Assembly (NCBI GenBank): GCA_007117065.1
Contig: SKHI01000015.1
Coordinates: 1-37,168 of the forward strand
Direction: 5' to 3'
From: Candidatus Woesearchaeota archaeon
Lineage (GTDB): Archaea; Nanobdellota; Nanobdellia; Woesearchaeales; SKIA01
DNA length: 37,168 nt
Both the position numbers and the translations under genes were made by a program. How positions within the stretch are numbered: position 1 is the first letter of the stretch; every line of letters begins with the position of its first letter. Under the pieces are notes generated by a model that saw only the letters and a list, made by a program, of their open reading frames with translations, had not been told where the DNA came from and made no database searches. Of the stretch, positions 9,680 to 12,709 are shown piece after piece.

Positions 9680-9958
9680 TTATGTATTCATTGATAAGAG
9701 TGTCGGTTCGTGAACAGATAGATACTTTTGCGTGTACAATAATAAGAGTCTTTTTGCAATTGCATTTGCTTCTTGCGGAGAATATCCAACATATAATAAT
9801 CGTCGATACACTAACTCCTTTGCACATAAGAGTTCATCAGAGCAAAAAGACAGTATAAGATCTACTTGCTCGTCAAAGAAATCCTTGACCTCTTGTGCCA
9901 CAGTGCCAGAATACAAATTCCATAACACTAAACTATGCGTTACTATACGTGATTTCAT
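9680..9958 (-). CDS. Hypothetical helical protein (~92 aa)
   Basis: Start probably at MKSRIVTHSLVLWNLYSG (9958) rather than the track start at 9976. Confidence 0.55.
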   Translation of the reverse strand: MKSRIVTHSLVLWNLYSGTVAQEVKDFFDEQVDLILSFCSDELLCAKELVYRRLLYVGYSPQEANAIAKRLLLLYTQKYLSVHEPTLLSMNT

Positions 9959-9970
9959 AAGGAAAAGAAA

Positions 9971-10345
9971 GCTCATCAGAGGTTTTGATGAGCAAGATTT
10001 TGGGAGGCGATTTGGTTACTAATACGAGTTACTTAACGAGAGTAACTGCTGTTCCTGCCAATCAAGGCGTTTTGGGTTACTGTATATGCAGAGAGGGGGA
10101 GAGAATGGTGGTTACTAAGCGACCAAGATCATATTCCACAGGAACAGCAGAAAATATAAATCCGAGACCCGAAGGTCTCGGCTCACCTCTTCTCCATAAA
10201 GAAGAGAGTTGTTAGAAAGATAAACTCTGGGTACAAAGAGTGGAGAGGATACGAGAGTGGATTGAGAGAATGCACCCAGAGTAGTACTATAATTTCTTAC
10301 TGTGTGTTGCCTACTTAACCGATGAGTAACATGCGCTTACTCACC
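9971..10345. ncRNA. Candidate structured non-coding RNA, family and strand unassigned
   Basis: Intergenic region with several perfect helices: 9971-9978/9986-9993 (8 bp), 10046-10057/10139-10150 (12 bp), 10162-10169/10174-10181 (8 bp, CGAA loop on +, cUUCGg loop on -), 10187-10193/10200-10206 (7 bp), 10224-10232/10274-10282 (9 bp), 10324-10329/10337-10342 (6 bp); no convincing ORF. Confidence 0.6.
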
Positions 10346-10346
10346 G

Positions 10347-10763
10347 TTATTTCTTTACTTCGAATGGGAAAGGAGCCTTTCTTGTCTCTTGAAGCCACAT
10401 CAGACCTATTTTCATGAGGTTTTTATTGAATTGCTCACTTATCTTGTAATTTTTCTTGTACATGTCGTACTGTATCATACCCATTGTTTTCATGGGTGTG
10501 AGGATGCGATCGTAGAATTGACGCTTGTTATAGCTAATCTTTTCTTTCTTTTTTATAGGAATAGGAAAACGCTGTTCTGTTTCTATAGTAAATCCATCAT
10601 GGAGTTGTGTTGCAAACATACTCATCTCTGTCTTTCCCATCTCCCCATCGTGTTGTTTTATTTCTTCGATGAGAAGTTTTCCTACGATTACTTGTTGACT
10701 TGTCGCAAAGATAAGTTCATAGACGTTATCTGGCATATTGTATTGGTCGAACAGAATAACCAT
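10347..10763 (-). CDS. Predicted winged-helix-like small protein of unknown function
   Basis: ...EKISYNKRQFYDRILTPMKTMGMIQYDMYKKNYKISEQFNKNLMKIGLMWLQETRK, consistent with a wHTH; TATA-like ATTTATATATTAG (minus) at ~10783-10796 suggests start at 10763 (MVILFDQYN) or 10736 (MPDNVYEL) rather than 10781. Confidence 0.6.
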   Translation of the reverse strand: MVILFDQYNMPDNVYELIFATSQQVIVGKLLIEEIKQHDGEMGKTEMSMFATQLHDGFTIETEQRFPIPIKKKEKISYNKRQFYDRILTPMKTMGMIQYDMYKKNYKISEQFNKNLMKIGLMWLQETRKAPFPFEVKK

Positions 10764-10837
10764 ACAAAGTATATTTAGCAACTAATATATAAATCTGTCG
10801 ATTAATGTAGTAATGTGTATACTGTTTGCGTGTTTCG

Positions 10838-12709
10838 TTAAAACAATGTGCTTTGTGAGCCAGGAGCAGAAACAGAAAAAAATGAAGAAAGAACTTTTGT
10901 AGGTGACTCTTCAATAACAAGATCCCAGGTAGGAGGAAAACACCGCTTATAATTATTCCACGCATACCGTTCATCAAGAAAAATAAGTGCGCCCCTATCC
11001 GTCTCCGAACGAATACAACGACCAGCCGATTGCAACACCTTATTAAAAGCAGGAAATACATACCCATAATCCCAACCACGAGAAAATTTCTCATCATAAT
11101 ACTTCATTAATGCCTGGGTCTCTAAATCAGGTTTAGCTAAGGGCAAACCAACAATAACAACAGCTTTTAACGCATCACCAGGAAAATCAACTCCTTCAGC
11201 AAACGAACCAGAAGTAATTGCAAACAACGTAGCACCAGATGAGCGAGCAGCAAAGAAACGCGATAATAACTCTTGACGATCTCCTTTTTTCATACCTCTT
11301 GTTTCAAGAAATACTTCTTTGTTACACGAAAAAACACTCAAAACCTTATCCCGAAGAGCATACGAAGGGAAAAAAATAATGGAATTGCCCGGAGTAATAT
11401 TTACGATATCAGAAATAATCTTTGCTTGCTGAGAGTACATCCCATCACTCCGAGCAGTGTATTTAGTACTTGTGACAGGGACAATAAGAGAGAGACGATT
11501 TTGTGCAGGAAAAGGACTTTGAAACGTATACTCACGCGTCCTGAGAGGCAAGTCAAGAAGTTCAGAATACATAACAGTAGGCGTTAAGGTACCAGACATA
11601 AGAATGGATGAATAACAGCCGCGAAAAAGAGGACCTGAAACAACCCCAGGATCAAGGCAACGAAATGACAAAGACACAACAGAATCAAAGGAAGTAAGAA
11701 TACGACAAAAGCCCTCGTCAGGTTCATCCCAGAAAGATAAAAATTCCCCAACAGAGGCTATGTACGACCGCTGACGAACCTCACGAACCTCATCACCGCG
11801 TTTTAAGAGCAAATCCACATCATAAGAAGCAGCACCTAAAGCAACTTTTAGGTCTGCACGAGAAATAAACCGCTCACCCTTCTGAGAACCAAGTGCGACA
11901 AGAGCAGAACGTAACGATTCAAATACAGGAAAATCAAAATCAAAATCAGCAGCTTCCTCAATAGCACGCGAAAGAACGAATAAAGACAAGCGAGAAGAAG
12001 CAAGATCTTTAATTCGGTCAGGAACATTATGCGCTTCATCAATAACAAGAATACACTGAGATAAATCCTTACCAATTTTTGAAAGAAAATTATCGCGAAT
12101 GCGCGGATGAAATAAATAAAAATAATCCGTAACGATAACGCGAGCGTGCTTAGCAGAAAGAATGCCTATTTCGTAGGGGCAAACAGAATGTTCTTTTCCA
12201 ATACGAAGAAGAGAAGCACTATCAGGCGAAGAAGAAGCCTTTTCAAGTGCGAGACGAGCATCAACAGAAAGAGAACCAGAAGTACGTAAATTCTCATAAT
12301 ACAAACATTTATGATCTTCACGAAGCGCACGACAATACTCGATAAATTCACCACTTCCCATCGAATCGACACCGTTTTGCAAACACATCCATTTCTTTCC
12401 AATAAGATTTGCAACCGGAACTGAGACGGAGTATCGCTCCTCAATGCGCTTTATGGTGTCCAGTGCGATACGATGCTGCGTATGACGACTCGTAAGAAAA
12501 AAAACAGTAAGGTCATTTTGTATAGCAAAGGCAACAGCAGGACCTAAAGATGCAGCAGTTTTCCCCAGCCCAGTAGGCGCGTGTACCACAAGATGATGCT
12601 TATCTTGTAATGATTCATCAACAGCTAAAACGAGCTCATCTTGAATAGGGCGTACAGAGTCATGGGGAAACAGAAGAAGGCGACGACGTTGCTCATTTAA
12701 CATACACAT
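10838..12709 (-). CDS. XPD/Rad3/DinG-family superfamily 2 DNA helicase with Fe-S cysteines
   Basis: Walker A HAPTGLGKTAASL, DEAH box VIDEAHNVPD, four Cys (KKWMC, EYC, HKC, SVCPYE) in Fe-S domain position, C-terminal QSAGRCIRSETDRG. Confidence 0.93.
   Translation of the reverse strand: MCMLNEQRRRLLLFPHDSVRPIQDELVLAVDESLQDKHHLVVHAPTGLGKTAASLGPAVAFAIQNDLTVFFLTSRHTQHRIALDTIKRIEERYSVSVPVANLIGKKWMCLQNGVDSMGSGEFIEYCRALREDHKCLYYENLRTSGSLSVDARLALEKASSSPDSASLLRIGKEHSVCPYEIGILSAKHARVIVTDYFYLFHPRIRDNFLSKIGKDLSQCILVIDEAHNVPDRIKDLASSRLSLFVLSRAIEEAADFDFDFPVFESLRSALVALGSQKGERFISRADLKVALGAASYDVDLLLKRGDEVREVRQRSYIASVGEFLSFWDEPDEGFCRILTSFDSVVSLSFRCLDPGVVSGPLFRGCYSSILMSGTLTPTVMYSELLDLPLRTREYTFQSPFPAQNRLSLIVPVTSTKYTARSDGMYSQQAKIISDIVNITPGNSIIFFPSYALRDKVLSVFSCNKEVFLETRGMKKGDRQELLSRFFAARSSGATLFAITSGSFAEGVDFPGDALKAVVIVGLPLAKPDLETQALMKYYDEKFSRGWDYGYVFPAFNKVLQSAGRCIRSETDRGALIFLDERYAWNNYKRCFPPTWDLVIEESPTKVLSSFFSVSAPGSQSTLF

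Follow-up and report, generated by a model that had tools for sequence, protein, structure and literature searches.

The window, by which we mean the whole 37,168-nt stretch of DNA analysed here, carries on its minus strand a gene for a winged-helix-like protein (Table 1). The upstream neighbour of this gene, as in many but not all relatives, is an XPD/DinG-like helicase gene (10838-12709, minus strand; Pfam DEAD_2 and Helicase_C_2). On the other side lies a small minus-strand gene (9680-9958; 92 amino acids from the second ATG), whose similarity is limited to two congeners among the loci searched. Between the small gene and the winged-helix-like gene is the RNA region that is the subject of this analysis. 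An earlier note, made from the sequence alone, described this interval as highly structured and as carrying six perfect short helices. The helices it named are all present in the window, with two of their starts corrected, and the predicted fold of the 401-nt region beats 100 of 100 shuffled sequences on the plus strand (-121.8 kcal/mol, z -4.65) as well as on the minus strand (-112.4 kcal/mol, z -5.57).

Table 1. Features of the structured RNA region and of the adjoining gene, in window coordinates.
Feature	Position	Strand	Basis or remark
12-bp long-range stem, CTGCTGTTCCTG / CAGGAACAGCAG	10046-10057 / 10139-10150		sequence
Stem, ACTCTGGGT / ACCCAGAGT	10224-10232 / 10274-10282		sequence
Tetraloop hairpin, CCGAGACC / GGTCTCGG	10162-10169 / 10174-10181		loop CGAA (plus), cUUCGg (minus)
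Stem, GCTCATCA / TGATGAGC	9971-9978 / 9986-9993		sequence
Structured RNA region, whole	9963-10346	-	3' UTR of the 10347-10763 gene; 5' end 10346, 3' end near 9963
Hairpin GGUGAGUAA..UUACUCAUC	10321-10345	-	directly past the stop codon; not clearly retained in congeners
Unit 1: stem ACUCUGGGU/ACCCAGAGU, loop GCAUUCUCUCAAUCCACUCUC..	10224-10282	-	probable homolog of the order-wide element
Purine motif GGAGAAGAGGUGAGC	10181-10195	-	located between unit 1 and unit 2
Spacer hairpin, cUUCGg tetraloop	10162-10181	-	compensatory change in 2 of 8 pairs among congeners
Unit 2: 12-bp stem CUGCUGUUCCUG/CAGGAACAGCAG, large pyrimidine-rich loop with UUAGUAACCACCAUUCUCUCCCCC	10046-10150	-	
Small hairpin GUUACU..AGUAAC (plus-strand DNA GTTACT..AGTAAC)	10028-10046	-	sequence; not clearly kept in congeners
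Terminal hairpin GCUCAUCA..UGAUGAGC, then UUUCUUUUCC	9963-9993	-	terminator-like
Gene, winged-helix-like protein of ~138 aa (~140 aa)	10347-10763	-	RNA region lies in its 3' UTR
Gene promoter: TTTATATA (10786-10793) and GTATAC site (10817-10822)	10786-10822	-	aligned upstream regions of 82 homologs

The earlier note found none of the hallmarks of RNase P or SRP RNA in this region, and proposed that it might be either a divergent housekeeping RNA or a new RNA class. Consistent with the first observation, none of the 4227 families of Rfam 15 matches the RNA region at gathering score, and the same is true of 20 relatives. At this score, the sole match in the whole window is a tRNA elsewhere, and a permissive scan of the RNA region returns only animal RNAs at chance level. 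Archaeal RNase P RNA (RF00373) and SRP RNA (RF01857) are likewise large structured RNAs, but neither has a match in the window, and the genome's own copies score above cut-off on other contigs (107.6 bits on G000:C32 and 112.5 bits on G000:C48, respectively). Because both RNAs are clearly present elsewhere in the same genome, we rejected both readings. Size and structure alone would suit some other divergent known RNA, but given the lack of Rfam matches in the window and in the 20 relatives, we assign such explanations practically no weight. The housekeeping half of the proposal therefore falls, and the other half stands: the region is a genuine structured RNA that belongs to no known family. 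Our searches of the literature brought up neither a description of such an RNA nor any regulatory RNA family of Woesearchaeota.

We compared three genomes of the genus, namely that of the window and two congeners, G001 and G002. The region was found by a DNA match in G002 (E 2.6e-8) and at the same place in G001 (locus L025), and in all three genomes it lies between the winged-helix-like gene and the small gene starting at 9958. Four helices are kept in the congeners, namely the two units, the UUCG spacer hairpin and the terminal hairpin. Compensatory changes in homologs, which the earlier note had proposed as a check, are present in 8 of the 39 pairs of these helices (with 4 cells unpaired), and the stem of related elements covaries strongly across the order, as detailed below. 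All 12 pairs of the unit 2 stem are kept in the three species, one with a compensatory change and one as a G-U pair on the minus strand. At the site of the terminal hairpin, the congeners have CCUGCCC../..GGGCAGG, and 4 of its 8 pairs show compensatory changes. Some changes, in unit 2 and the terminal hairpin of G002, give G-U pairs on the minus strand only. We also observed four copies of GUUACU on the plus strand (AGUAAC on the minus) within positions 10015-10116 of the RNA region; mostly matching copies occur in both congeners, and one of them is GUCACU in G001.

The winged-helix-like protein has homologs in 260 of the 292 sampled genomes of the order, and mean column identity over 26 aligned homologs is 77%. 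When the whole class was searched, matches came from 95 genomes, every one of them in the window's order. The named loci are mostly labelled Candidatus Woesearchaeota, and some are labelled Nanoarchaeota/Nanoarchaeia or Euryarchaeota. An AlphaFold2 model (pLDDT 80.7) has a winged-helix-like arrangement. Foldseek searches with this protein returned only weak matches to eS19-like winged helices (best E 9e-3, TM about 0.3); by sequence, there was no match in the PDB, and neither Pfam nor NCBIfam offered a convincing family. Several genomes (G121, G048, G009, G092, G045 and others) have two copies of the gene. The promoter of the gene, which combines GTATAC repeats with a CGAAA-type BRE and TTTATATA, is strikingly conserved across 82 homologs. 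Over half of these homologs have the beginning of TTTATATA 28-35 nt ahead of the start codon, and therefore their predicted mRNAs lack a leader. In the window, about 30 nt separate the TATA box from the start codon, so the mRNA is probably leaderless there too.

In most relatives, this gene is directly followed by a hairpin whose loop is strongly conserved, usually within about 40 nt of the stop codon. The element consists of a stem of 7-13 bp (consensus GGCUCCC/GGGAGCC) closing a G-poor loop of the form UUCU..AACCACCCC(U/C)CCC. Of 87 distinct regions downstream of the gene, 64 have a hairpin with a C-rich loop. By the same threshold, the opposite strand has none in any of the 87, and among 470 random pieces drawn from these loci only 2 have such a hairpin (Fisher p about 1e-61); it is important to consider that the hairpin criterion, which was tested against these controls, and the members of the models below were picked after inspecting examples. 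About 20 of the 87 regions have no such hairpin.

We built two covariance models of the element, whose E-values are rough. The first, R1, with 13 members in antisense orientation, matches in 76 of the 292 genomes of the order. Where an R1 match shares its contig with a listed gene copy (49 matches, one of them the reverse-strand echo of another), it is always on the downstream side of the gene and mostly 5-40 nt from it. The second, R2, represents the sense strand and was built from 36 members, including standalone ones (see below); it matches in 181 of the 292 genomes, and outside the order it gives only four weak matches (E >= 4.6e-4), all in the same class. Where the genome has a listed gene copy, 82 of 101 R2 matches lie at most 600 nt downstream on the same strand, with a median gap of 24.5 nt. 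Most genomes have one element locus. Covariation in the stem exceeds that in shuffled alignments: in alignment A7, 9 of 10 stem pairs have changed on both sides (69 such cells, as against 20.2 in shuffles), and the sense-strand alignment A9 has 44 cells as against 12.9.

Some other structural ideas were less fruitful. With the first (antisense) alignment, RNAalifold was misled into pairing CUCCC with the loop's GGGAG over 5 bp. A nested hairpin within the loop (GGUU..AACC) pairs well in some families only. We also considered mimicry of the anti-Shine-Dalgarno sequence at the 3' end of 16S rRNA by the loop sequence ACCACCCCUCC, but the match is inexact.

As to the strand, which the earlier note had left uncertain, several observations agree. 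Among 70 distinct stems, interior G-U pairs outnumber A-C pairs by 46 to 14 on the gene's sense strand (p=4e-5 in a test that treats stems without regard to shared ancestry). Past the 3' arm on the sense strand, there is a richer U tract (10.8 vs. 7.8 U per 20 nt, p=8e-5). Because of these two asymmetries, we read the RNA on the strand of the gene, i.e., minus in the window, which is the side of the UUCG loop that the earlier note had counted for minus. The plus-strand alternative, which had been suggested by purine-rich loops, gains something from the fact that the stem folds on either strand and from a GUAA tetraloop on the plus strand of one congener. However, both asymmetries run against it, the promoters of standalone copies (see below) point in the minus-type sense, and the weak TATA-like TACTATACG that the earlier note had counted for plus turns out to lie within the first part of the coding sequence of the next minus-strand gene, which is a gene conserved in the congeners. 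We regard a plus-strand RNA as very unlikely.

How the window's RNA relates to the order-wide element is a matter of graded similarity. R2 scores 21.5 bits in a sister genus of the same family (E 1.5e-4), 14.5 bits in a congener (E 0.02) and 10.8 bits in the window (10217-10282, minus strand; E 0.28). This weak last match is not significant alone, so the case for homology rests on position, architecture and the gradation in scores. It is the best R2 match on either strand of the 37 kb, it falls on unit 1, and the element that it marks is directly downstream of the winged-helix-like gene, in the sense orientation. On the minus strand, units 1 and 2 are each a stem closing a G-poor, C-rich loop, and unit 2 shares the element's plan of a stem plus a loop with UUAGUAACCACCAUUCUCUCCCCC. 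Moreover, arrangements of two units occur in distant relatives (L123, L132, L133, L137, L142 and L144). Given the graded scores, the plan of unit 2 and these relatives, we interpret the window's RNA as a genus-specific enlarged form of a new family of structured non-coding RNA in this order, a reading to which we assign a probability of roughly 0.7. The expansion comprises the two units, the UUCG hairpin and the terminal hairpin. Judging by sequence comparison, we consider the identity of the element and its strand, taken by themselves, to be highly probable.

It might seem simplest to view the element as acting purely in cis, i.e., as a 3'-UTR terminator or stability hairpin of the winged-helix-like gene, possibly bound by the winged-helix-like protein itself, with no separate role for the RNA. 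It usually stands right behind the stop codon and is followed by U-rich sequence, and its copies are single or in tandem, and are not scattered behind other genes. However, a plain terminator has no need of the conserved UUCU..AACCACCCC loop; the marks of an intrinsic terminator and nothing more, namely a loop that is not conserved and occurrence behind many genes, were not what we found, as the loop is conserved and most genomes have a single locus. In addition, some copies are separate from the gene. Copies located away from the usual gene generally have a promoter of their own, of GTATAC plus TATA, in the upstream sequence, and there are loci at which no reading frame intervenes between this promoter and the element. 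Of 29 candidate standalone loci, 22 have GTATAC in the 200-nt upstream stretch, compared with 44 of 640 controls, and 18 have TTTATATA, compared with 22 of 640; several of the standalone loci also served in building R2. GTATAC starts 18 nt before TTTATATA at L163, L164, L167, L172, L215, L216, L221 and L223, and at L168, L213, L218, L219, L220 and L222 it follows the beginning of the TATA box by 31 nt. At five of the 29 candidates (L207-L210 and L224), the RNA lies right behind what looks like a diverged copy of the protein gene, and these loci are therefore really gene-coupled. Finally, two genomes that are at least 92% complete (G067 and G082) have the RNA, and the protein gene was not detected in them. 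In view of these loci, we think a purely cis-acting element improbable, and in a sizeable minority of genomes the standalone element looks like a free non-coding RNA. At two further loci (L074 and L075), the element is behind an XPD/DinG-like helicase gene, the window neighbour of the protein gene.

Returning to a structured RNA with a role of its own, the function that we favour is that of a stable RNA whose C-rich loops are offered to a putative partner. The RNA could be made within the mRNA, be freed from it, or be produced as a free RNA of ~90-170 nt, and it would act through its single-stranded C-rich loop. The partner might be purine-rich (Shine-Dalgarno-like) sites in mRNAs or a protein that binds C-rich RNA; a loop with almost no G, held open by a strong stem, fits either. 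Duplicated units, as in the window, would provide more binding sites. It is important to emphasize that this mechanism is tentative, and we would put it somewhat short of even odds. By description, it resembles bacterial small RNAs with C-rich loops, e.g., those of the staphylococcal RsaE type, which are derived from 3' UTRs or are standalone. They share a stable stem, a C-rich single-stranded loop and an origin in a 3' UTR or from an own promoter, but the element here is archaeal and no sequence relation is expected.

A narrower version of this function, compatible with it, is that the RNA serves as a decoy for a protein, either the winged-helix-like regulator or another protein that binds C-rich RNA. 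The model for such a role would be CsrB/CsrC-type RNAs, in which a repeated unpaired GGA motif is carried on hairpins and the number of units varies. The likeness lies in a repeated unpaired motif presented by hairpins in variable number; the motif here is C-rich rather than GGA, and the partner protein is putative. Long unpaired loops, the repetition of the C-rich motif, the duplicated units and the promoter type common to the RNA and the regulator gene would all suit a decoy. However, the loop does not resemble a GTATAC site, and no solved structure is clearly related to the protein model. We consider a decoy less likely than not. A different comparison is with raiA-type and similar gene-linked orphan RNAs, which are conserved structured RNAs beside one gene family. 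The element shares this arrangement, but is unrelated to them in sequence and structure, and the gene here encodes a lineage-specific winged-helix-like protein.

The conserved promoter GTATACnAAAAnGTATACAAAACGAAATATTTATATACTAGT, observed upstream of the winged-helix-like gene in the window (10786-10822) and in homologs, is likely the operator of an order-wide regulator. The protein probably binds GTATAC sites, by prediction, and would thereby control its own gene as well as the RNA. Across genomes, the double GTATAC pattern occurs at only a few sites per genome, modestly above its reversed control. The furthest-reaching possibility, which we consider rather doubtful, is a lineage-defining regulatory pair, both members on GTATAC promoters, in which a winged-helix protein specific to the group is partnered by a structured RNA acting in trans. 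The RNA would occur either in the 3' UTR of the protein's mRNA or as a gene of its own, and would be the first conserved regulatory non-coding RNA family of Woesearchaeota. This large group is known mostly from metagenomes and has so far been beyond genetics. With the RNA in most sampled genomes of the order and the protein in about nine tenths of them (and in none outside the order in the searches made), the two form a concrete and testable candidate regulatory circuit, and the new covariance model could be added to Rfam.

An additional point concerns the purine motif GGGAAAAAGAGGU(GA), which we observed shortly before or after the element at L105, L115, L127, L150, L161, L170, L173, L205 and L206, and which may belong to the RNA as a second part. 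An exact search for the 11-mer found 7 copies in 376 kb, while two control words had 0. The motif is sometimes located behind a small UUUCC..GGAAA hairpin, and its counterpart in the window is GGAGAAGAGGUGAGC.
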